A stretch of 32,262 nt of DNA from Planctomycetaceae bacterium (lineage in GTDB: Bacteria; Planctomycetota; Planctomycetia; Pirellulales; Pirellulaceae). The stretch spans positions 1-32,262 of the forward strand of contig SKZY01000273.1 in the NCBI GenBank assembly GCA_007127095.1. Reading direction: 5' to 3'. Under the pieces are notes generated by a model. That model had not been told where the DNA came from and made no database searches. It worked only from the letters and a program-made list of their open reading frames with translations. Positions 6,086 through 29,782 of the stretch are shown here, piece by piece; the first letter of the stretch is position 1; every line of letters starts with the position of its first letter. A program made the translations under genes and the position numbers.

Positions 6086-7261
6086 ATGGCCACGGTTCTC
6101 GACCTGCGACGGACCGATGACCCACGAGATATCGTTCACCGAACGGTCGAATCGCTGGCCCGTGGCCAGGTCGTCGCGATCCCGACCGAGACGGTTTACG
6201 GCTTGGCCGCCGACGCCCTCAACCCGGACGCCGTCCAGCGGTTGGCGGAACTTAAAAAGCGGTCGCCCGATTCACCACTGGTACTCGCCGTGCGGGGCCC
6301 CGATGAAATCCTCGACTATGTCGGTCAATTGTCGTCACTGGCCCGCCGTTTGTCGCGCCGCTGCATGCCGGGGCCGCTGACGCTCGCCGTCCCGCCGGTG
6401 GGCGACAATACGTTGGTCGACCGACTGCCGCCGCTGGTCCAGCAGTGGGTCGTCGGCGATCATCGGTGCGTCGGCTTTCGGGTCGTCGACCATCCCGTGA
6501 TCAGCCAATTGCAACAGTACCTACGCGGGCCATTGGTGTTGACCAGTGCGAACGAATCGGGAAAGAATCCACCGACGACAGGACAACAAGTGGTCGATTT
6601 GCTCGGCGACGCGATACCGCTGGTGCTCGATGACGGCCCGACCCGTTATGGTGGGGCATCCACGGTGGTGCGGGTGCTCGACCATCGCTACGAAATACTC
6701 AGACCCGGGGCAATCGAAGCCGCTGCGATGAATGATTTTGCCAAACCGCTGATCGTCTTGGTCTGCACAGGAAACACCTGTCGCAGCCCAATGGCCGAAG
6801 GCCTACTGAAAAAACGACTCGCCCAGCGCGGTGGCGTCTGGGCGGGCGTCAGCGTGATGTCTGCCGGCGTCGCAGCGCCCGATGGGGTCCTTGCCAGTCC
6901 GTTCGCTGTCGACGTGATGGAGGCCCAAGGGGTCGATCTCGACGACCACGTCAGTCGACCGTTGAGCGACGCTTTGATCCATCGCGCCGACCTGGTGTTG
7001 ACGATGACCCGCGGGCATCGTGCCGCGATCCTCGCCGCTTGGCCCGATATGGAAAGTCGTGTTCGCACGCTCCGCGGCGACGGCGGCGACATCGCAGACC
7101 CGGTCGGCGGGTCGATCGAAGTTTACGAACAATGTGCCGCTGAAATCGAAGCGGCGATCGACGAATGGTTGTCGCAACTCGGCGACGACTTCTTGCCTCA
7201 AGCCCAACCGTCCGGCAACGATCCCGATGCCCGCGCGACCGACTCTCAGGGGGATCATTGA
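6086..7261 (+). CDS. Threonylcarbamoyl-AMP synthase (Sua5/YrdC/TsaC) fused to LMW protein phosphatase
   Basis: A 391-residue two-domain protein. Residues about 10-210 are a Sua5/YciO/YrdC domain that makes threonylcarbamoyl-AMP from Thr, bicarbonate and ATP for tRNA t6A37. It shows PTETVYGLAADA (32-43), KKRSPDSPL (57-65), LTSANESG (152-159) and STVVRV (192-197). Residues about 220-365 are a low-molecular-weight phosphatase with the loop CTGNTCRS (Cys227, Arg233) and the general-acid DPVGGS (Asp338). Thr231 in the loop matches the Thr of Bacillus YwlE that selects phosphoarginine, rather than the Ile of tyrosine phosphatases. In Bacillus, ywlC (Sua5), ywlE and ywlF (rpiB) are separate neighbours; here the first two are fused and rpiB follows with a TGATG overlap. 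The ATG at 6086 was chosen because the frame upstream lies in tkt and spacer. Confidence 0.92.
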   Translation: MATVLDLRRTDDPRDIVHRTVESLARGQVVAIPTETVYGLAADALNPDAVQRLAELKKRSPDSPLVLAVRGPDEILDYVGQLSSLARRLSRRCMPGPLTLAVPPVGDNTLVDRLPPLVQQWVVGDHRCVGFRVVDHPVISQLQQYLRGPLVLTSANESGKNPPTTGQQVVDLLGDAIPLVLDDGPTRYGGASTVVRVLDHRYEILRPGAIEAAAMNDFAKPLIVLVCTGNTCRSPMAEGLLKKRLAQRGGVWAGVSVMSAGVAAPDGVLASPFAVDVMEAQGVDLDDHVSRPLSDALIHRADLVLTMTRGHRAAILAAWPDMESRVRTLRGDGGDIADPVGGSIEVYEQCAAEIEAAIDEWLSQLGDDFLPQAQPSGNDPDARATDSQGDH

Positions 7262-7713
7262 TGTTGCGGATCAGTTTTGCCAGTGACCATCGCGGCGTCG
7301 CCATCAAAGGGCGACTGGCCCAACGCCTGGTTGACGCCGGGTACGAAGTTATCGACGAAGGAACCGACAGTGATCATGCGGTCGACTACCCCGACTATGC
7401 CCAGATCGTCGCCCGTAAAGTCAGCAGCGGGGAAGTCGACCGTGGCATCCTGATCTGCGGCACCGGGATCGGCATGGCGATCGCCGCCAACAAGTTCCCC
7501 GGCGTCCGCGCCGCACCCTGTTACGACGAAATGATGGTCGAACTGAGCCGGCGACACAACGACGTCAACGTGCTCTGCTTGCCCGGCGACCTGATCGGCG
7601 AACGCTCCGTCGATGACCTGGTGCTGATGTGGCTACGGACCGAATTCGAGGGCGGCCGGCATTCGCGGCGGATCGATAAAATCGAGGGCATCGAGAAGAA
7701 TGGCCAGCCATGA
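7261..7713 (+). CDS. rpiB: Ribose-5-phosphate isomerase B / LacAB-type isomerase
   Basis: Interconverts ribose 5-phosphate and ribulose 5-phosphate (pentose phosphate pathway), cytoplasmic. The 150-residue protein shows ASDHRG (7-12), DYPDYA (42-47), the catalytic loop ICGTGIGMAIAANK with Cys66, and RRHNDVN with His99, all in the normal places for RpiB. The start ATG overlaps the previous stop (TGATG), and the stop overlaps holB (ATGA), so translation is coupled across all three genes. Its pathway partner tkt lies just upstream, which may be more than chance. Confidence 0.93.
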   Translation: MLRISFASDHRGVAIKGRLAQRLVDAGYEVIDEGTDSDHAVDYPDYAQIVARKVSSGEVDRGILICGTGIGMAIAANKFPGVRAAPCYDEMMVELSRRHNDVNVLCLPGDLIGERSVDDLVLMWLRTEFEGGRHSRRIDKIEGIEKNGQP

Positions 7714-8768
7714 ATGCCGCCGCGCCATCGCCCACCGCGGATCCCTCGCGGATCGAACCGATCGGTCATGCCGATGCCAAACGCGGCTTCGCCAACTCGC
7801 TCGCCCAAGGTCGACTCGGGGGCGCGTTCTTGATCGTCGGCCCGCCCGGCATCGGCAAAGCGGCACTGGTCAAATGGATCGCCCAGTGCCTGTTCTGTGA
7901 TCGGACCGCCGACGATTCCCTCTCCTGCTGTGGCCACTGTCCGGGCTGCAGTCAGGTTGCCGCCGAAACCCATCCCGACTTCGTCCAGGTCAGAAAACGC
8001 GACGATCGGGCGACGATCTTGCTCAGTCAACTGATCGGCGACGACAACAAACGAGGCCAGGAAGGCTTCTGCCGCGACATCCGACTCCGGCCGTTTCGCG
8101 GTACCCGTAAGGTCGCGATCCTGCATGATGCCGATTTCCTCGGCAAAGAAGGGACCAATTGCCTCCTCAAAACGCTGGAAGAACCGCCGCCCGATGCCGT
8201 GATTTTTCTCGTCGGTACCAGCGAACAAAAACAATTGCCGACGATTCGCTCACGCTGTCAGATCGTCCGCCTCGGACCTCCCCGCGGCGCCGATGCCGTC
8301 GAACTGTTGCGCCTCCGCGGAATCGAGTGCGACGCGGAGACGGCCGACCGCGCGATCGGTCTCTGCGGTGGTGACTGCCATGCCGCCGCGGCGTTGCTGA
8401 CCGAAAGCGGGCAGGGGATCCGCCGACGACTCACACAGCTGCTTGACCAGCCGTCGATCAGCGGGATGGCGTTGACCACCCTGGTCACCAAAGAGATCGA
8501 CTCGGTCGGCAAAGGTGAAAACGAAGAGATCGCCAAGGCCGCGGTACCGGCGGCGAAACGCGACCGGCTGCGTCATATCTTGACGATCGCGATTCACCGT
8601 TTTCGCGAACGGTTGATCGAATCCGCCGACGCGCCCGACCGCCTGCCGCCCATCATCTACCGACTCGATCGGTCGATCGTGGCGATGTCGCAGATCCAGC
8701 GAAACGCCAACCAAGCCGCATTGATCGAATGTTGGTCTACCGACATCGCCCGCGGTCATCCCGCTTGA
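7710..8768 (+). CDS. holB: DNA polymerase III delta' subunit (clamp loader)
   Basis: AAA+ clamp-loader subunit that helps load the sliding clamp at replication forks. The 352-residue protein has the P-loop GPPGIGKA (44-51). A zinc module has cysteines at 60, 63, 73, 74, 77 and 80 (CCGHCPGC). LKTLEEPP (153-160) and the sensor-1 SRC motif (181-183) are present. The Walker B region reads ILHDAD rather than DEAD, consistent with delta' not being an active ATPase. A close relative would be the DnaX tau/gamma subunit, but that is longer and has an intact DEAD box. The start overlaps the rpiB stop by four bases. It is the last gene of the operon. Confidence 0.88.
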   Translation: MNAAAPSPTADPSRIEPIGHADAKRGFANSLAQGRLGGAFLIVGPPGIGKAALVKWIAQCLFCDRTADDSLSCCGHCPGCSQVAAETHPDFVQVRKRDDRATILLSQLIGDDNKRGQEGFCRDIRLRPFRGTRKVAILHDADFLGKEGTNCLLKTLEEPPPDAVIFLVGTSEQKQLPTIRSRCQIVRLGPPRGADAVELLRLRGIECDAETADRAIGLCGGDCHAAAALLTESGQGIRRRLTQLLDQPSISGMALTTLVTKEIDSVGKGENEEIAKAAVPAAKRDRLRHILTIAIHRFRERLIESADAPDRLPPIIYRLDRSIVAMSQIQRNANQAALIECWSTDIARGHPA

Positions 8769-11641: not shown

Positions 11642-12207
11642 TGTAATTTCCTTGGTTAATCTCGTTGGATGTGGCCACAATCACCAGCCCTTCGTCGCCA
11701 GCGAATCCGGTCGAGTTGTCGCCGGGATCGACATTCTAACGATTTACATATTTTCTTCCACCAAAAAATGACTTTTTGCTATGGCGTGTCAATCGGCGAA
11801 CGTTTTTTTGCGTTTCCTGGAATGCCTGTTTCCTATTGTCTCAAATCCGATCGATGCCGGTCACAAAGGAGCTTGATTGACTGGCGGGCGATCCCGCTCG
11901 TGGCCGCACTCGACGATCCGGTACTGATCAAAAAAACCGAACCCGAGTCGCTGACCAAAGCCAATTTGGGAATTCAGTTCCGCTCGTCGGGTTGCCCCCC
12001 GGAGCGATCGATCGGCTAAACTGTGCCTGCTGCCACTGGGGACATGCCACTTGACGCGAAGTGAAGGCCGTATCCACGGCGACCCCAGTCCGTAGTTCCG
12101 TCGAGGGGCATTGATCACTGAGTGTTCGTTAAGCAGGGAGCCAGGTCATCAATACTGACGATCAACTGACGAGCGACGTGGATCGATTGGCAACTAGCGA
12201 GGCGGGA
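11642..12207. other. Gene-poor divergent region
   Basis: No gene or recognisable protein fragment was found on either strand. There is an AT-rich patch at about 11738-11785, unusual for the window, which is a likely promoter area for the minus-strand gene. A TTGACA reads on the minus strand at 11792-11787 but has no clear -10 partner at the right distance. The open frames at 11669-12019 and 11861-12118 have no family-like content. Confidence 0.45.
11648..11653 (-). promoter_or_regulatory. Ribosome binding site deciding the SpoIIAA-like start
   Basis: AAGGAA read on the minus strand, six bases before the ATG at 11641. Most other genes here lack such a clear site, so it decides between two candidate starts. 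Confidence 0.7.
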
Positions 12208-15200
12208 ATGCCGAGCGAAACCGTTGCCGCTGATGACGCGCGTTGCCGGCCGATGTACGTCGTGGGCATCGGAGCATCTGCCGGTGGGTTGGAGGCGTTG
12301 GAACGCCTCTTTCAGAGCATGCCCGACGACTCGGGGATGGCGTTCATCGTCGTCCAGCACCTCTCACCCGACTTTAAGAGTCTGATGAATGAGCTGTTGG
12401 CGAGATGGACCACGATGCCGATCTGCGCCGCCGAAAACGGCCAAATGGTCGTCGCCAACCATATCTATCTGATGCCGCCGAAGACGGAGATGATCATCTC
12501 CGATGGTCGGTTGCTGTTGTCGTCTGGCAAGCGGAAGGACGAATTGCGATTGCCGATCGACCAATTTTTTCGCTCGCTCGCCCGCGATCGCGGTCCCCAG
12601 GCGATCGCGATCGTACTGTCGGGCACCGGTAGCGATGGTTCGCGGGGCATTCGTGACGTCAACGAATGCGGAGGCCTCGTGATCGCCCAGTCGGAACGAA
12701 CGGCGAAGTTTGATGGAATGCCTAAAAGTGCGATCGAAACCGGCGTGGTCAGCTACATGCTGGCGCCGGAAGAGATGCCCGGTGTGCTGTTGCGACACGT
12801 CCAGAACTTGTCGATCGTGGCGGTTCCCGAGGATGCGGCCGACGGCATGTCACCAATCTTTCGGCTGTTGCGGGAAAACTACTCGATCGACTTTTCGCAC
12901 TACAAACCGACGACGGTACTGCGAAGAACCGAGCGGCGCCTGCAATTGCTGGGCATTCACAAACTGGATCGCTACGTCGAACGGCTCAAGGAAGATCGCG
13001 AAGAACTCGACGCGCTGTATCGTGATCTGTTGATCGGAGTGACCAGTTTCTTTCGCGATCCCGATGGTTTCGAGTCACTCGACAAAAACGCGCTGCCAGA
13101 AATCTTCGAGAAGCTTTCTCCTGGCGACGAGTTTCGCGCCTGGGTCGCCGGTTGTGCCACTGGCGAAGAGGCTTACTCAGTGGCCATTTTGGTTCATGAG
13201 CAAGCGTGTCGACTGGATCGTCAGATTCCGATAAAAATCTTCGCCACGGATGTTCATCAGAGGTCGCTGGAAACCGCCGCCGCGGGAGTCTACAGCGCTG
13301 GCGCCGTCGAAGCGGTATCCGATGACCGTTTGAAGAAGTATTTCGTCAAGACGGTTGACGGTTACCGTGTCACCGCCGAACTTCGCAACATGGTGGTTTT
13401 TGCCCAACACAACATCACCAAAGACGCGCCGTTCACTCGGCTCAATCTGATCACCTGTCGCAACCTACTGATCTACCTGCTGCCTGCACCCCAAAAGAAA
13501 GCGATCAGTCTATTCCACTTCGGGCTCAAGACCGGAGGGGTGTTGTGGCTGGGGCCCAGCGAAAGCACCGGTGACATCGCGAGCGAATTCGAAACCATCG
13601 ACAAGCATTGGAAGCTTTATCGCAAGCACCGCGATGTAAGATTAGCACCCGATTTTCGGCTGCCGATGTCGTCGGGGACCGGCGGCCATGGATTGGTAGA
13701 CCGCCGCTCGGCATCGCACGACAACCACTTGATCGAGTCGTTGGTCCAGGTCGTCGAGCAGACGCTCGGTGCCGCTGTGCTGGTGAATGACCAGTTGGAA
13801 ATCGAGCATACGTTTGGCGAAGCGAGTCGCTACATCTCGATCTATCGAGGTGCGCCGACCTTGAACCTGATCGAATTATTAACTCGTGAATTGAGGACTG
13901 CCGTTAGTGCGGCTGTTTATCGGGCGCGTCGTGAAAAGCGAACGATCGTCTTTTCGGGTATCCAGACCGGCGAGAAAGAAGACGCAACCCAGGTCGACGT
14001 GTGTGTGCAGCCTCTGCCATCAACGCGCAGGAGTGGCATGCACCTGTTCATCCGATTCGAGGATGCGACACGACCGCTGCCGGATCCTGATCGAATAGGG
14101 AATGCGGATTTCTCCGAAGCGAATCGCGAACATATGGATTCGATCGAGACCGAACTCCGCTTCACCAAGGAAAACCTACAAGCTACGATCGAAGAACTGG
14201 AAACCAGCAACGAGGAGCTACAAGCGACTAACGAGGAACTGCTGGCCTCGAATGAAGAACTGCAATCGACCAATGAAGAACTACATTCGGTAAATGAAGA
14301 GCTATATACGGTCAACGCTGAATACCAAAAGAAGATCGATGAATTGACCGAACTGACCCGTGACATGGACAACCTGCTACTCAGCACCGATGTCCACACG
14401 ATCTTCCTTGACGACCAGTTGCGAATTCGAAAGTTCACGCCGCGAATGGCGCAGGTGTTCAATCTTGTCGAAAGCGACGTTGGACGCAACATTCACGGAT
14501 TCTTTCATTCGATCCTCAGTAAAGACTTGCCCGAAAAGCTGCAGCAAGTTTTGACGACCGGTACGATCATCGAGGAAGAGGTCCGCACCGCCGCCGGCGG
14601 CTACTACTTGATGAGGATCCTGCCGTATGTCGGCGACGCTAAGTATGGCGGCGTCGTGCTGACGCTTATCGATGTCGCTATGGTCAAGGATGCTGAAGCT
14701 CGCTTCAGCAACGCTGTCAGTGTTTCACCCAATGGGATCCTGACCATCGATCAAGAAGGGCTGATCACGATGGTCAACGCCGAGGTCGAACGAATTTTCG
14801 GATATACTCAGTCCGAGTTGATCGGAAAGCCGGTTGAGGTTCTGGTGCCGGCATCGGAGGGGGCGAGGCACGAGAGGTTTCGCAACGAGTTTTTCCGCCA
14901 CCCGCGATTGATCTTGAGAATGGGCGAAACGTCTTATGTGTGGGGTGCCCACAAGAACGGAACCGAAATTCCGTTGGATGTACGTGTCAATCCGATCGAG
15001 ACGCCGTCGGGTATCCAGGCGATCGCATCGATCGTCGATTTTTCTGTGCATCAAGAACTCGAGGCGACACTCCGTGAACAGGTGATTCAGCGTGACCGGT
15101 TCCTGGCGACGCTCTCCCATGAATTGCGAAATCCGATCGCTGCGGTTTTGACATCAGCATCACTACTGCGTCGGATCGCAAAAAAGAATGCGGATGTGGA

Positions 15201-16203
15201 ACAATCGGCTACGGTAATTCATCGGCAAACGTCGCATATGGCAACCCTTTTGGATGACTTATTGGACGTTTCACGCGTTACCCAAGGGAAGATCGACCTG
15301 CGGCTCAAGCCGGTCGATCTGGTCGCGGCGTGTCGCGAAGCGATCGAGTCGGTCAGTGCGATCGCGACCCGACATCGACACACGATCGAGACCGAACTCC
15401 CCTCGCGTCCGCTCTACATTCATGCCGATCGCGTGCGGGTTTTACAGATTATCGAGAACCTGTTGACCAACGCCATTAAATACACCAAAGAATCGGGCAA
15501 CATCATGGTTTGCCTGGTTGCCGAAGCGGGATTCGCGGTTTTGCGGGTCCGCGACAACGGTTGCGGGATGAGCGCAGAATTGCTGGCAACGATCTTCGAT
15601 ATGTTCGTCCAATCCGATGACACACTCGATCGTAGCCAAGGTGGTATGGGTGTCGGTTTAACCTTAGTCAAATCGCTGGTGGAGCTTCACCAAGGGACGA
15701 TCACAGCGGTTAGTGATGGCAAGGGAAGTGGCAGTGAGTTCACCGTCCGTTTCCCACTCACCGAACTTCGGCCAACCGCCCCGATTCCACCGGCGAATGT
15801 TTTCGAAAAGAGTGCCGTCACGATGGTCTTGGTTGAAGACATCGAGGATTCTCGCACCATGTTCGCTCAACTCTTGCGTTTGGAAGGATACCAAGTCGTC
15901 GCGACGGCGGCCGACGGGTTAGAAGGGTTGGAGACGATTCAAAGGTTACGGCCCGATGTGGCATTGCTCGATATCGGTTTGCCGAAAATCGACGGTTACG
16001 AATTGGCTCGTCGGCTTCGACGCGAACTCGGCGATTCCATCTTTCTGGTCGCATTGACCGGCTATGGCAGAGGCGAAGATCAAGAGGCGGTACTCGAGGC
16101 GGGATTCAATGCGCATCTCGTAAAACCTGTCAATGTCGAAACGCTAAATGCAGCCCTCGAGAAATCGGCCCCGATCGGAACATCGCGACGAATCGAAAAG
16201 TAG
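12208..16203 (+). CDS. CheB-CheR-PAS-histidine kinase-receiver hybrid
   Basis: A 1331-residue signalling protein with no predicted membrane segment. Order from the ATG at 12208: CheB methylesterase (about 16-200; catalytic Ser24 in GASAGG, His51 in VVQHL, Asp143 in SGTGSDG); CheR methyltransferase (about 215-485; SAM motif VAGCATGEEAYS); heptad-rich coiled coil with repeated SNEELQATNEEL units (about 653-716); two PAS domains (about 720-835 and 835-950); HisKA with phospho-His971 in SHELRNP; HATPase with the N box around Asn1088 and DNGCGM; and a receiver with Asp1255 (LLDIGLP) and Lys1306. All key catalytic residues are present. No chemoreceptor or other che gene is nearby, so the methyl-transfer target is unknown. 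A GTG at 12178 is an alternative start; the ATG has GAGG five bases upstream. Confidence 0.95.
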   Translation: MPSETVAADDARCRPMYVVGIGASAGGLEALERLFQSMPDDSGMAFIVVQHLSPDFKSLMNELLARWTTMPICAAENGQMVVANHIYLMPPKTEMIISDGRLLLSSGKRKDELRLPIDQFFRSLARDRGPQAIAIVLSGTGSDGSRGIRDVNECGGLVIAQSERTAKFDGMPKSAIETGVVSYMLAPEEMPGVLLRHVQNLSIVAVPEDAADGMSPIFRLLRENYSIDFSHYKPTTVLRRTERRLQLLGIHKLDRYVERLKEDREELDALYRDLLIGVTSFFRDPDGFESLDKNALPEIFEKLSPGDEFRAWVAGCATGEEAYSVAILVHEQACRLDRQIPIKIFATDVHQRSLETAAAGVYSAGAVEAVSDDRLKKYFVKTVDGYRVTAELRNMVVFAQHNITKDAPFTRLNLITCRNLLIYLLPAPQKKAISLFHFGLKTGGVLWLGPSESTGDIASEFETIDKHWKLYRKHRDVRLAPDFRLPMSSGTGGHGLVDRRSASHDNHLIESLVQVVEQTLGAAVLVNDQLEIEHTFGEASRYISIYRGAPTLNLIELLTRELRTAVSAAVYRARREKRTIVFSGIQTGEKEDATQVDVCVQPLPSTRRSGMHLFIRFEDATRPLPDPDRIGNADFSEANREHMDSIETELRFTKENLQATIEELETSNEELQATNEELLASNEELQSTNEELHSVNEELYTVNAEYQKKIDELTELTRDMDNLLLSTDVHTIFLDDQLRIRKFTPRMAQVFNLVESDVGRNIHGFFHSILSKDLPEKLQQVLTTGTIIEEEVRTAAGGYYLMRILPYVGDAKYGGVVLTLIDVAMVKDAEARFSNAVSVSPNGILTIDQEGLITMVNAEVERIFGYTQSELIGKPVEVLVPASEGARHERFRNEFFRHPRLILRMGETSYVWGAHKNGTEIPLDVRVNPIETPSGIQAIASIVDFSVHQELEATLREQVIQRDRFLATLSHELRNPIAAVLTSASLLRRIAKKNADVEQSATVIHRQTSHMATLLDDLLDVSRVTQGKIDLRLKPVDLVAACREAIESVSAIATRHRHTIETELPSRPLYIHADRVRVLQIIENLLTNAIKYTKESGNIMVCLVAEAGFAVLRVRDNGCGMSAELLATIFDMFVQSDDTLDRSQGGMGVGLTLVKSLVELHQGTITAVSDGKGSGSEFTVRFPLTELRPTAPIPPANVFEKSAVTMVLVEDIEDSRTMFAQLLRLEGYQVVATAADGLEGLETIQRLRPDVALLDIGLPKIDGYELARRLRRELGDSIFLVALTGYGRGEDQEAVLEAGFNAHLVKPVNVETLNAALEKSAPIGTSRRIEK

Positions 16204-25852: not shown

Positions 25853-28800
25853 ATGACCGTCGACCTCGATGCGATCGCTCGCCGATCCGGCAGTGACCTT
25901 TCATCACTCAAGCTCGCCTTACCGCTCATCGAGCAGGGATTCGAGCCACCGTTTCTGGCTCGTTACCGACGTGACGAACTGGGAGGGGTCAGCGAAGCAG
26001 CGTTGTGGATGCTGCAACGACAATTGCGAGCCGAGCGAGCCTTGGAGTCGCGTCGCGAAGAGCTGACCAAACAGTGGCAACGGACCCGTTTGGCCGACGC
26101 GTCGCTCGCCAAAGCGATCGTCGATGCGAAGACGAAAACGGCGATCAATCGAGTCGCTCGTCGGCTGAAGTCCGAACCGATCGATCCCGCCGTCGCGATC
26201 GCGCCAGAAACCTTGGTCGCCACTCGATTGCTCAACCCCCAATCGGGTGATTCGGCCGATATCGCCTCGATCGCCGACGCCGTCGGGCAAACCGATCAGC
26301 TGGCACGGATCAACGAGTCGCTCGATCAGGCACTCGCCAAACGGGTCGCCGAAAGCCCGCAGGTGCTCGGGGCGGCGATCCGCTGGTTGACCGCCAACGC
26401 GTCGATCCGATTCATTGAGGTCGGAGACCCGAATCTCGAATCGAAACGTGACGACGAATCGTCAGCCGCGGCGTCTCACGTCGATCCCAACCTCTCCGAC
26501 CGACCGCAGACCGAACCGGGGGCGAATTGGCCAAGTCCCGATCAGTTGACCTCTGCGGGCGATGCAGCCGAATCGGTCGCTGATGCCGCAGCGACTGAAA
26601 CGCAGCCGCCAACCGCAGCGGCAGCCGGTGGCGAGTCAGCGGCATCCGCCGAAGCCGCGGCAGCTGAAACCCCGGTGTCCGAAGCCCCAGCGGCCGAAGC
26701 AACGGCAGCCGAAACACCAGCGGCTACTGGCGACGAAGCACCAGCGGCCGAAGCACCAGCGGCGACTGGCGATGAAGCACCGGGCCCCGAGGCCGCAGCG
26801 GTGATCGAAACAGCCGACACGGACACACCAGCTACCACGGACACACCAGCAGCGGCGGAAACGCCAGCTGACACGGACACACCAGCAGCGGCGGAAGCGC
26901 CAGCAGCCACGGACCATCCGGCTGAGAAACGGCCGGCCGAAAAGAACCTGGCTGGCTCACGCGGCGGCAAGGGTGGCAAGCAGAAGGGCAAGGGCGGCGA
27001 TGGGGCTAAACCGATCGTCAAGAAGACGAAGGTCTTGAAAAAATTGTCGCCACGGCAGCGTCGGCGACGCTGGTTGATCGGTATTCTCGAGCCTTTGGTC
27101 GGCAAGCAGATCCCGATTCGTAATCTATCCGCCTTCCAGACGATCGTGCTCAGCCGTGCCCTCCGGGGCAACTTGGTCCGCTGCCAGTTCGTCTACGACG
27201 CCAACCAATTGATCGCTCAATTGCAGAAGACGGCGAGCCATTTCAACCCGGCGGTGGCCGAGCGTTTGGCAGCGATCATCAGTACTCACGAGGCGGCGAT
27301 CCGCGAGGCGACCGAATCGCAGTGGTGGGCCGAGTTGCAGGAGATCGCGACGGCGGAATTGGTCGATCTGTCGGCCCGTCACCTCGATGCCCAACTGCAC
27401 CGCGGCGGGCTGGAGGCCAAGACCGTGATGGCGATCGATGCCGTCGGGCCCCGGACGTCGCCGATCGCTATCGTCGCCGCCGACGGTCGACTGCTGCACA
27501 CCGAGGACATCGCCAGCCAGTTGGATAACCAATTGCGGACCGCTTCGGTGACCCGATTGGGTGAATTGATCCATCGGTTCGGCGTCGACCTGATCGTGAT
27601 CAGTAACGGTCCGGTGCGACGCGCCACGATGATCATTCTAGGCGAATTGATCTCGCAATCGCCGGCGGATTCCGTGCGTTGGACGATCGCCGAGCGGAGT
27701 GGTGCGGACGCTTATTCGGGTAGCGATCTGGCCGACCGTGAGATGCGGAGCACGCCGCGGCGATTCCGGGCCGCCACCTGGTTGGCGTTCTCCGTCCTCA
27801 AGCCGGCCTGGTCGTTGTCCAAAGTCAACCCGCTGAGACTGCGTCTGTCGTCGGCCCAGCGAGAATTGCCCGATGACTTGCTCGCCCCAGCGCTTCGTGA
27901 TGTCATGACCAGCGCGATCAGCCGTGGCGGCTTGGATGTCAACTCCGCGGCGGTCGATTCGCTGGTACAGTTGCCCGGCATGACTCGAGCGGTGGCCCAA
28001 GCGATCGATCGTCAACGGCGGCAATCGCTGTTCACATCTCGCGATCAATTGCTGACACTCTCCGAATGGCCCGACGAGATGAGCAGTCGCCAAGCGATCG
28101 GGTTTCTCCGCGTCTTCGGCGGCGAAGAATCGCTCGATGCGACCGTCATTCATCCTGAGGATTATTCGTTAGCCCGCAAATTGGCGACGGCACTCAACAT
28201 CCCCCTGCCACCCGCTGCCCCCTCGGGATACCAACCGCCCAGCTTCGATGACCAGTCGGATAAATCGACCGGCCCCGGCTCGGATACCGTGATCGAGGTG
28301 CCAGCGACCGGTGATGCCGCCAAGGCTGCCGATCAAGCGGAGCCGGGCGAGTCGGCTTTCGCCGTCGAATTGCAAGCGGCTGGCGATGCGTCGGCCCCGG
28401 CCGAGGCCGCCGAGGCGAAGCGTGATGGCGCGGAAGGCGAGATCACTGAGGCCGAAGCGAACGGGGATGCTAGCCAAGAAAAAGATGAGCCGGCCGAAGC
28501 GACCGGGGAGGCTAACGAGGAAAAAAGCGAACCGGTCGAAGCGAACGGGGATGCTGGCGAAGAAAAAAGTGAACCGGCAGAAGCGAAAACCGAAGCGGCC
28601 GAGCCGGAAGTTGCCGAAGCCGCAGCACGCCACCCGTTGCCCGACCCCGCGTTGATCAACAAGTGCATCCGCGAGTGGCAGGTCGGCTCGAGCCGGACCC
28701 ACCGCTTGGTGCATGCGTTGTGCGATCCGTTCGGTGAAGAGTCGGTCCTCAACGCGTCGGATCCGCCGAGCTTGATGAACCGCTTGCCCAAAACGAATGA

Positions 28801-29782
28801 ATTACGACCGGGCGACGAGGTGGTCGGAGTCGTCGCCAGCGTCGCGCCGTTCGGCGCGTTCGTCGAGATCACTCCGGAAGCGACCGGGCTGATCCGCGTC
28901 AGCCGGCTGGCGGAGGAGTTTGTCGAGGAGATCCACGATTACATCCAGGTCGGCGATGTCGTTTCCGCTTGGGTGACCGACGTCGATTCGCGTCGTAAGT
29001 TACAGCTCTCGGCAATCTCGCCGCAGCGGGAAGAGGAACTCCGTCGACAGCGCCAGGAACAACGCGAACAGCGTGGCGGACGGGGCGGTTTCGGCCGGGA
29101 CCGGCAAGGAAAACGCGGGCAGACGGGCCGTGGTGGAGCCGCCGGTGGGGCGAACGAGGCCAACCGTGGAGCCGCGCCAGCAGGCCAAGCGGGTGGCGAT
29201 CAGCGAGGTGGCGGTTCCCGCGGTAACTCACGGGGCAACGCAGCAGGCGGCGGCCGGGGCGGCCAGCCCGCTGGACGGGGCGATTCCCGCCGCGGTGGGC
29301 GTGGTGACCAATCACGTCGGCCCGGCGACGGTCGCGGTCGTGACTCTCGTGGCCGCCGTGACGAACCGATCTCCTACAGCACTCGGGTACCGAAAAACGA
29401 ACCGGCGGCTCCGATCACCGAAGCGATGGCGGAAGGGAAAGAGCCGTTGCGATCGTTCGGTGACCTGATGCAATTCTTCAAAAAGGATCAGCCCGAACCG
29501 CCGGCCAAGAAACCGCCAGCCAAGAAGCCTTCGGGCGAAAAACATCCGGGCGGCAAGGGTAAGCAGGGCGTCGAGCCGACGCCTCCTGCGGGCGACGTTC
29601 AGTCTGAGACGAAGCCGACCCGTGATGCGGAGATTAGCGAAAAACAGGCCTCTCCAGAACGGTCGACGGCTACCAAGCCGGCACCGGTCACCGATGCGAA
29701 TACCGAATCGGAACGACCGACCACCTCCCCAAGCGGTCAGGCGGATTCGGCAGCGGCAGGAGATTCGGGGTCAGAGTCCTGA
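25853..29782 (+). CDS. Divergent Tex-like protein with S1 domain and RGG-rich tail
   Basis: A 1309-residue protein, against about 780 for Tex. Order: Tex-like helical N-domain (1-190; IEQGFEPPFLARYRRDELGG); Ala/Glu/Thr/Pro-rich insert (about 193-383); second helical part plus a YqgF/RNase-H-like domain (about 386-690; VMAIDAVGPRTSPIAIV, VDLIVISNGPV, ERSGADAYSGSDLADRE); helix-hairpin-helix part (about 693-785; GGLDVNSAAVDSLVQLPGM); acidic insert with a 14-residue repeat (788-925); S1 RNA-binding domain (985-1058); RGG/RG-rich tail (1074-1171); and a Lys/Pro-rich end (PPAKKPPAKKP). Tex proteins bind nucleic acids and affect transcription. The added tail suggests RNA binding or condensate formation, which is inference. 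The Tex sequence is strongly diverged, so it may be a paralogue. It overlaps the next gene (TGATG). Confidence 0.82.
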   Translation: MTVDLDAIARRSGSDLSSLKLALPLIEQGFEPPFLARYRRDELGGVSEAALWMLQRQLRAERALESRREELTKQWQRTRLADASLAKAIVDAKTKTAINRVARRLKSEPIDPAVAIAPETLVATRLLNPQSGDSADIASIADAVGQTDQLARINESLDQALAKRVAESPQVLGAAIRWLTANASIRFIEVGDPNLESKRDDESSAAASHVDPNLSDRPQTEPGANWPSPDQLTSAGDAAESVADAAATETQPPTAAAAGGESAASAEAAAAETPVSEAPAAEATAAETPAATGDEAPAAEAPAATGDEAPGPEAAAVIETADTDTPATTDTPAAAETPADTDTPAAAEAPAATDHPAEKRPAEKNLAGSRGGKGGKQKGKGGDGAKPIVKKTKVLKKLSPRQRRRRWLIGILEPLVGKQIPIRNLSAFQTIVLSRALRGNLVRCQFVYDANQLIAQLQKTASHFNPAVAERLAAIISTHEAAIREATESQWWAELQEIATAELVDLSARHLDAQLHRGGLEAKTVMAIDAVGPRTSPIAIVAADGRLLHTEDIASQLDNQLRTASVTRLGELIHRFGVDLIVISNGPVRRATMIILGELISQSPADSVRWTIAERSGADAYSGSDLADREMRSTPRRFRAATWLAFSVLKPAWSLSKVNPLRLRLSSAQRELPDDLLAPALRDVMTSAISRGGLDVNSAAVDSLVQLPGMTRAVAQAIDRQRRQSLFTSRDQLLTLSEWPDEMSSRQAIGFLRVFGGEESLDATVIHPEDYSLARKLATALNIPLPPAAPSGYQPPSFDDQSDKSTGPGSDTVIEVPATGDAAKAADQAEPGESAFAVELQAAGDASAPAEAAEAKRDGAEGEITEAEANGDASQEKDEPAEATGEANEEKSEPVEANGDAGEEKSEPAEAKTEAAEPEVAEAAARHPLPDPALINKCIREWQVGSSRTHRLVHALCDPFGEESVLNASDPPSLMNRLPKTNELRPGDEVVGVVASVAPFGAFVEITPEATGLIRVSRLAEEFVEEIHDYIQVGDVVSAWVTDVDSRRKLQLSAISPQREEELRRQRQEQREQRGGRGGFGRDRQGKRGQTGRGGAAGGANEANRGAAPAGQAGGDQRGGGSRGNSRGNAAGGGRGGQPAGRGDSRRGGRGDQSRRPGDGRGRDSRGRRDEPISYSTRVPKNEPAAPITEAMAEGKEPLRSFGDLMQFFKKDQPEPPAKKPPAKKPSGEKHPGGKGKQGVEPTPPAGDVQSETKPTRDAEISEKQASPERSTATKPAPVTDANTESERPTTSPSGQADSAAAGDSGSES
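26837..26908 (+). repeat. 36-bp tandem repeat, two units, in the Ala/Thr-rich insert
   Basis: Units 26837-26872 and 26873-26908 differ at only a few bases and encode Thr-Asp-Thr-Pro-Ala-Ala-Ala-Glu-type segments. Similar 39-base-spaced repeats (around CCAGCGGCNACTGGCGA) occur just upstream at 26716-26780. The whole insert seems to have grown by slippage and may vary in length between strains. Confidence 0.75.
28454..28579 (+). repeat. 42-bp tandem repeat, three units, in the acidic insert
   Basis: Units 28454-28495, 28496-28537 and 28538-28579 each encode a 14-residue acidic segment: EANGDASQEKDEPA, EATGEANEEKSEPV and EANGDAGEEKSEPA. The repeat keeps the frame, so copy number could change without breaking the gene. 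Confidence 0.85.

Follow-up and report, generated by a model that had tools for sequence, protein, structure and literature searches.

Why should an enzyme of transfer RNA modification and a protein phosphatase share one polypeptide? The question is raised by a gene in a 32,262-nucleotide stretch of DNA (contig SKZY01000273.1, assembly GCA_007127095.1) from a bacterium of the family Planctomycetaceae; we refer to this whole stretch as the window. The gene encodes a fusion in which a TsaC-type synthase domain precedes a YwlE-type phosphatase domain. Comparison with related genomes revealed repeated loss of catalytic residues from the TsaC half, mainly where the genome encodes a separate Sua5. 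We lean toward a reading in which a TsaC-type synthase was joined to a YwlE-type arginine phosphatase and the TsaC fold was later kept as a tether or guide.

A synthase domain and a phosphatase domain in one frame

The gene is a single open reading frame (ORF) with zero internal stops in the translation of the window. Its product scores 157.4 bits against PF01300 (cut-off 25.1) and 143.6 bits against TIGR00057 (cut-off 123.2), the NCBIfam model of L-threonylcarbamoyladenylate synthase. The tetrad formed by K57, R59, S154, and N156 is complete; according to passages of PMC10321239, this KxR/SxN tetrad serves as a filter for TsaC/Sua5 sequences. Among solved structures, the first half is closest to Sua5/TsaC chains (1e-24 to 1e-17), and YciO is far weaker (5e-7). 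A Pfam scan of the fusion did not find the C-terminal SUA5 domain (PF03481), so that the first half is not of the Sua5 (TsaC2) type. The sole PF03481 match in the window's genome lies on contig C263 and belongs to a separate full-length Sua5 (L064), because of which synthesis of N6-threonylcarbamoyladenosine (t6A) in this organism need not depend on the fusion.

The second half has the features of YwlE: the fold of low-molecular-weight protein tyrosine phosphatases (LMW-PTPs), a phosphate-binding loop (P-loop) of the form C(X)5R(S/T), a DP general acid, and Thr at the P-loop position PX5. Its score against LMWPc (PF01451) is 100 bits. YwlE entries (best 1.1e-27) and 4egs (1.4e-26) are its nearest solved relatives, with other LMW-PTPs at 1.5e-16 or weaker. 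We also modeled the fusion with AlphaFold2 from 20 sequences (mean predicted local distance difference test [pLDDT] 91.1; predicted template modeling score [pTM] 0.85) and aligned the domains separately with VIA-align. The modeled first domain matched P. abyssi Sua5 (6f89_B) with a Z score of 27.2 and a root-mean-square deviation (RMSD) of 2.3 over 208 residues; the second matched YwlE (4kk4) with a Z score of 25.2 and an RMSD of 1.2 over 147 residues.

A preliminary description of this DNA, made from its letters alone, had proposed a TsaC/Sua5 domain fused to an arginine-phosphatase-like domain, a CTGNTCRS loop with Thr at the specificity position, and rpiB as the next gene downstream. The uninterrupted frame, the two Pfam matches far above their cut-offs, the loop as read in the sequence, and the match and junction of rpiB (Table 1) bear these points out. 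Its equation of the first half with YwlC/Sua5 holds in part: the domain is TsaC-like, but it is not a whole YwlC/Sua5.

The fusion occurs widely and appears to be ancient. Among 246 evenly sampled Planctomycetota genomes, a match spanning both domains was listed for at least 148, and 16 more came from further sequences that were read, which brings the count to at least 164. We read 121 fusion sequences, the window's own included; the other 43 genomes rest on the match listing alone, and for 5 of these (G010, G027, G030, G075, and G080) a stop codon was reported within the match. The 121 were obtained from 130 candidate regions (30 loci and 100 regions, one batch of which was chosen because the genomes carry Sua5_C) after removal of L168 and L169 as repeat genomes and of L111, L112, L119, L123, L162, L163, and L164, none of which is a TsaC fusion; their YwlE stands by itself or beside DUF4202, or the sequence reads as ArsC-like. 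The best-matching named locus is that of a Rubripirellula metagenome-assembled genome (L186), with 56% identity over the best segment. Outside the phylum, a spanning match occurs in 82 of 117 sampled Omnitrophota genomes, one of which (G308, locus L303) is split by a stop, leaving about 81 fusions; 16 further genomes of the 117 carry separate, adjacent tsaC and ywlE genes (10 of the 16 were read). A contig of Candidatus Aerophobetes carries a fusion that runs into the contig end (L200). By similarity, two Bacillota (L212 and L258, the latter Fermentithermobacillus carboniphilus) encode a full-length Sua5 continuous with YwlE (595 and 536 amino acids), apparently an independent fusion.

Where the genes are separate, they are often neighbors. 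Seven Bacillota loci (L205, L206, L208, L229, L244, L257, and L259) have separate sua5 and ywlE near each other, and in four of the seven rpiB is also within reach. For 82 of the 121 fusions, the 0.3 to 1.6 kb read downstream of the gene contains rpiB in the same orientation. Because fusions exist outside the phylum and the separate genes are neighbors in Bacillota and Omnitrophota, the fusion derives from an old tsaC/sua5-ywlE-rpiB gene neighborhood and probably arose more than once. The preliminary description had compared the locus with the neighboring ywlC, ywlE, and ywlF of Bacillus and had asked how common the fusion is; a neighborhood of the Bacillus type was indeed found in these Bacillota loci, while the B. 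subtilis order itself is one that we presume. Databases such as InterPro presumably list the TsaC-YwlE architecture. Our literature searches returned no paper joining YwlE, Sua5, and fusion, and related searches returned no title or abstract start on a TsaC-YwlE fusion; passage searches of PMC10321239 and PMC9654439 gave neither Planctomycetes nor phosphatase.

In one Planctomycetota family (f12; L111, L112, L162, and L163), a YwlE-type phosphatase with the loop CTGNTCRS is fused ahead of a DUF4202-like domain, with no TsaC. Pfam matches identify both parts in L111 (PF13875 [DUF4202], 9.7e-58; PF01451, 4e-20); the other three were judged by eye. This arrangement suggests that DUF4202 may be connected with arginine phosphorylation.

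The preliminary description had also suggested a search of the genome for an McsB-type arginine kinase, and had regarded the lack of such a kinase from every genome with the fusion, together with activity on phosphotyrosine only, as fatal to its idea. The window's genome does contain an McsA–McsB pair. The single PF00217 gene (L001) encodes a product that exceeds the cut-off of NF002194, protein arginine kinase (462.9 bits; cut-off 385), and remains under that of NF053707 (394.1 of 500 bits); its best solved relatives are protein-arginine kinase chains (7.8e-85). Immediately before it lies an McsA-like gene (NF053706, 105 bits, below the cut-off of 210), and an McsA relative adjoins McsB in 35 of the 40 McsB loci examined. 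The PF00217 search detected McsB in 233 of the 246 Planctomycetota genomes, including 118 of the 121 with a read fusion and 159 of the 164 with any known fusion. The objection of a kinase missing from all fusion genomes therefore fails. McsB was likewise found in all 11 searched genomes behind related loci: two Omnitrophota, one Candidatus Aceula (which we take to belong to the Omnitrophota), one Aerophobetes, two Bacillota, and five Planctomycetota, two of which carry a lone YwlE. In a control, PF00217 matched 0 of 14 well-known genomes, although B. subtilis, which is among them, carries mcsB (strain table of PMC7546277). Absences may therefore be false negatives, whereas presences are strong.

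Repeated decay of the TsaC half beside Sua5

We sorted the 121 fusions according to the presence in the genome of Sua5_C (PF03481), taken as the mark of a separate full-length Sua5 and found in 57 of the 246 genomes. Of the 86 fusions without Sua5_C, 83 retain the tetrad's K, S, and N; of the 35 whose genomes carry it, only 4 do (Fisher p 4e-21, kinship ignored). When R59 is required as well, the counts become 60 of 86 and 3 of 35 (p 3e-10); the stricter count is lower because several sole-copy fusions have KxS with Arg further along. The idea of decay was formed on the first 70 sequences, which leaves the 51 later ones as a fresh sample. Among these, K, S, and N are kept in 29 of 31 fusions without and 2 of 20 with Sua5_C (p 1e-9, kinship again ignored), or in 17 of 31 versus 1 of 20 when the Arg is included (p 2e-4).

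Few fusions depart from this pattern. The three broken ones without Sua5_C are in G192, a genome with four PF01300 matches, in G029, where Lys is replaced by Arg, and in G188, both of whose family mates have Sua5. The four that keep K, S, and N beside Sua5_C are those of the window's genome (G000), G031, G209 (Arg lost), and G219. Eight families mix Sua5_C-positive and Sua5_C-negative genomes. Positive members are broken and negative members intact in five (f21, f29, f32, f46, and f65); K, S, and N are never lost in f1, the window's family, or in f76, and f78 is broken in all three members.

Decay of the TsaC half arose repeatedly. A quick tree built from the phosphatase domain alone, with good support for 35 of its 118 inner branches, requires at least 14 changes to explain the broken state. 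Eight independent pairs whose members differ in Sua5_C could be placed on supported branches; over 200 pairings, a mean of 6.6 pairs agreed with decay beside Sua5 and 0.0 went against it (a few pairings had one against), with a median sign-test p of 0.016 (range 0.016–0.125). The phosphatase half does not share this fate: all 121 fusions retain its Cys, Arg, and DP. In ten decayed members picked for the test, PF01300 scores range from 18.7 to 78.7 bits, two of them under the cut-off, and LMWPc scores from 81 to 107.

The Omnitrophota provide a smaller comparison, which fits the pattern within its limits. Sua5_C occurs in 7 of the 117 genomes, and 5 of the 7 have YwlE unfused to TsaC. Of the genomes with both Sua5_C and the fusion, one has a broken and one an intact tetrad, and all 34 read fusions without Sua5_C are intact. 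The tetrad was counted from 38 rows, from which L303 was dropped as split and L201 (G248) was left out because its genome lies outside the PF03481 search.

In 60 Planctomycetota genomes the fusion is the sole PF01300 match and Sua5_C was not found; K, S, and N are kept in 58 of these fusions. Provided that these organisms make t6A and that the drafts missed nothing, their gene content implies that the fusion must be the t6A enzyme. The suggestion of the preliminary description that the fusion directly links tRNA modification with arginine dephosphorylation is supported in part. A simple view of one enzyme linking two activities is opposed by the 31 of 35 fusions beside Sua5 that have lost at least one of K, S, and N.

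Two other sampled members of the window's family, f1, have an intact fusion and no Sua5_C match, and the window's genome has an intact fusion together with Sua5. Our guess is that its fusion represents an early stage before decay. Contamination was rejected as the source of contig C263, whose composition resembles that of the window (G+C 61.2% versus 61.1%; tetranucleotide correlation 0.966–0.979 to thirds of the window), although this test is weak in that a close relative would look alike.

Substrate of the phosphatase and role of the retained domain

We propose the following model. Adjacent genes of the old neighborhood would have been joined to produce the fusion. Its N-terminal domain would make threonylcarbamoyl-AMP (TC-AMP), the first step of the t6A modification, and its C-terminal domain would take phosphate off protein arginines and so counter the McsA/McsB kinase encoded elsewhere in the genome. 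As the cell's only TsaC/Sua5, the fusion would also be the t6A enzyme; with a separate Sua5 present, the TsaC domain mostly loses catalytic residues yet remains attached and constrained, and would tether or aim the phosphatase. It is because of the decay pattern that we place the lasting value of the fusion with the phosphatase and view the TsaC fold as its tether or guide. For such a lasting non-catalytic role of the TsaC domain, we judge the chances to be about even.

Motifs and gene content make phosphoarginine quite probable as the substrate of the phosphatase half. According to passages of PMC8001253, PX5 steers selectivity, Thr toward phosphoarginine and Ile toward phosphotyrosine. Across the 121 fusions, PX5 is Thr in 96, Leu in 9, Ser in 7, Ile in 5, Arg in 2, Met in 1, and Val in 1. 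The residue differs in 20 other LMWPc genes of Planctomycetota (mostly best-scoring short frames, with some weak ones): it is Ile in 15 (C(L/M)GNICRS), 4 of the genes look ArsC-like, and the last, with CTGNTCRS, encodes a YwlE that stands alone. Among the 38 Omnitrophota rows, PX5 is Ser in 27, Thr in 9, and Ile in 2. Action on phosphotyrosine or another phosphorylated target seems improbable. It would fit the Ile or Leu at PX5 of some fusions, for example in f57 and f16, and the near relative 4egs, deposited as a tyrosine phosphatase; these points are set against Thr or Ser in 103 of the 121 fusions, the YwlE entries that head the solved relatives, the company of McsB in nearly all fusion genomes, and a separate LMW-PTP of the ordinary Ile type (P-loop CLGNICRS) that the window's genome already encodes. 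A strict link between PX5 and McsB was rejected, since 18 of the 121 fusions depart from Thr or Ser. An assembly or frameshift artefact that joined two genes can be dismissed with near certainty and was rejected. The draft assembly to which the window belongs is fragmented (475 contigs totaling 5.16 Mb, completeness 95.6%), but the fusion recurs in frame in 121 sequences across many genomes and contigs, including the single-contig genomes G127 and G095, in keeping with the view of the preliminary description that a frameshift is unlikely.

Several P-loop variants were observed. In family f57, the fusions L113, L114, and L115 all have Ile at PX5, and the McsB matches of their genomes (7.7e-40, 7.6e-46, and 5.1e-45) are weaker than most; by sequence, a joint drift of eraser and writer is possible. 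In f60, the fusions L093, L095, L096, and L176 all have the loop CTGNTDRS or CAGNTDRS, in which Asp replaces the second Cys, a change that would abolish a possible redox switch. Families f25 (L106–L110 and L124) and f80 (L165) carry CLGNLNRS, CVGNLNRS, or CIGNVNRS, with weak phosphatase scores and long branches; McsB is present in their genomes.

What, then, holds a decayed TsaC domain in place? An alternative to a tether or guide is that an operon-born fusion never acquired functional coupling: the two domains would work independently, and the TsaC half would decay once Sua5 makes it redundant, being kept as a tolerated or folding-helping neighbor. We give this explanation roughly a one-in-three standing, less than we accord to our own. 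It draws on the closeness of separate sua5 or tsaC and ywlE in Bacillota and Omnitrophota described above, on the frequent downstream rpiB, and on the other partners that YwlE has joined, namely DUF4202 and full Sua5 (L212 and L258), and it is consistent with Sua5-bearing lineages in which YwlE has no TsaC. It accounts less readily for retention of the fusion across deep divergence, with TsaC still attached in the 31 catalytically impaired fusions beside Sua5, and for ratios of nonsynonymous to synonymous substitution (dN/dS) of decayed domains well below 1. In decayed fusions, dN/dS of the TsaC part is 0.05–0.35 in 16 of 23 close pairs where it was estimable, and in intact pairs it is 0.12 to 0.34 (9 of 9); these values are rough, several dS being near saturation. 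Because of these ratios, the decayed TsaC domain is, as far as sequence comparison goes, still constrained and under purifying selection. It is also predicted to keep its fold: the model of L190, whose tetrad is gone (pLDDT 94.3, pTM 0.87), aligned with Sua5 6f89_B with a Z score of 23.2 and an RMSD of 2.8 over 206 residues.

Several observations weigh against a TsaC fold kept as tether or guide of an arginine phosphatase. The TsaC domain of some decayed pairs has changed far more quickly than the phosphatase domain (41% versus 71% identity between L101 and L122), which looks like a sign of relaxation, and purifying selection could come from folding alone. YwlE occurs without TsaC in Sua5-bearing lineages, alone in G231, with DUF4202 in f12, and unfused to TsaC in the five Omnitrophota mentioned above; the TsaC domain is therefore dispensable in these lineages. 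Some of the 18 fusions with neither Thr nor Ser at PX5 are in genomes with a strong McsB match. Ten near-complete genomes of family f44 all contain McsB without a recognized YwlE (LMWPc has no match in seven of them and, in the remaining three, matches only sequences that are ArsC-like by P-loop), and this family would thus have an arginine kinase without a known eraser. The synthase assignment is affected as well. The modeled first domain matches the fold of YciO (1k7j) just as well (Z score 26.2), and passages of PMC12506659 describe YciO as keeping most TsaC active-site residues without doing TsaC's job; for this reason, a complete tetrad is no proof of TC-AMP synthesis in the cell.

If the TsaC fold does guide the phosphatase, the most attractive target would be TsaD or the t6A machinery, given the reported link of the two pathways in B. 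subtilis, where McsB/YwlE governs the degradation of TsaD. According to passages of PMC7546277, B. subtilis TsaD carries a phosphate on Arg282; its stability depends on McsB/YwlE and ClpCP, and the R282K substitution stabilizes it. By this analogy, TsaD is a tentative candidate in Planctomycetota. One may speculate, with similar reserve, that the TsaC-derived domain repeatedly became a non-catalytic targeting subunit that docks on the t6A machinery or translation apparatus and keeps proteins such as TsaD free of the McsB mark. Such docking would couple protein quality control to translation fidelity; once Sua5 takes over the chemistry, the docking role alone would remain.

The fusion by itself is of modest interest, which is raised by the repeated decay of one half with the other retained. 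Decay beside Sua5 amounts to a natural experiment that parts the chemistry of a domain from the cause of its attachment, and it makes communication between t6A synthesis and the arginine-phosphate degradation mark directly testable. To our knowledge, work on protein-arginine phosphorylation has centered on Gram-positive bacteria. McsB and a fused, probable eraser span a deep, little-studied phylum and its neighbors.

The locus and its relation to known systems

The features of the locus are collected in Table 1. The product of the holB-like gene matches TIGR00678 (holB) under the cut-off (148 of 180.6 bits). Two long ORFs stand out elsewhere in the window, both on the forward strand. One (12178–16203) encodes a 1341-amino-acid hybrid of CheB, CheR, PAS domains, histidine kinase, and receiver domain. 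The other (25853–29782) encodes a 1309-amino-acid protein with Tex_N, Tex YqgF-like, helix-hairpin-helix, and S1 domains, which appears long for a Tex protein.

Table 1 Features of the fusion locus in the window
Feature	Position	Strand	Basis and remarks
Fused TsaC-YwlE gene, 391 amino acids	6086..7261	+	ATG at 6086, stop TGA at 7259-7261; N-terminus lines up with that of the relative L186
TsaC/YrdC domain, residues 23-208	6152..6709	+	PF01300 (Sua5_yciO_yrdC), E 3.4e-46
KxR of TsaC tetrad (K57-K58-R59)	6254..6262	+	Sequence reading; tetrad criterion from passages of PMC10321239
SxN of TsaC tetrad (S154-A155-N156)	6545..6553	+	Sequence reading
Linker, residues 209-222	6710..6751	+	Pfam borders; helix 212-219 in predicted model
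YwlE-type low-molecular-weight phosphatase domain, residues 223-362	6752..7171	+	PF01451 (LMWPc), E 1.7e-28
P-loop CTGNTCRS, residues 227-234, Thr at PX5	6764..6787	+	Sequence reading; meaning of PX5 from passages of PMC8001253
General-acid DP motif, D338-P339	7097..7102	+	Sequence reading; DP kept in 121/121 fusions
rpiB	7261..7713	+	PF02502, 1e-52; one base in common with the fusion's stop (TGATG, 7259-7263)
holB-like gene (DNA polymerase III delta-prime)	7710..8768	+	PF13177, 5.2e-37; four-base overlap with the end of rpiB

The phosphatase half resembles the YwlE/PtpB arginine phosphatases (4kk3, 4kk4, 4etn, and 4pic) in its fold, in the loop CTGNTCRS with Thr at PX5, in the DP acid, and in the presence of McsA/McsB in the genome. 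Unlike them, it sits behind a TsaC domain and has Val in place of the Phe that follows DP (DPVGG in the fusion, DPFGG in YwlE). The first half shares the YrdC fold with the TsaC/Sua5 (TsaC2) synthases (6f87, 9dsv, and 1hru), and the window's copy also has their complete KxR/SxN tetrad; in contrast to Sua5 (TsaC2), a phosphatase takes the place of the SUA5 domain, and the tetrad residues are gone in most relatives alongside Sua5. The T. tengcongensis LMW-PTP 4egs has a YwlE-like domain that is 36–38% identical to that of the fusion. Its entry, titled tyrosine phosphatase, was deposited under the molecule name 'Ribose 5-phosphate isomerase RpiB', which ties it to the same gene neighborhood, and the name suggests that the protein stems from a YwlE-RpiB fusion rather than a TsaC-YwlE fusion. 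HypF and TobZ, described as YrdC-Kae1 fusions in passages of PMC9654439 and PMC10321239, likewise join a YrdC domain to another enzyme domain. In HypF and TobZ the partner consumes the product of the YrdC domain, whereas in the TsaC-YwlE fusion the partner is a protein phosphatase.
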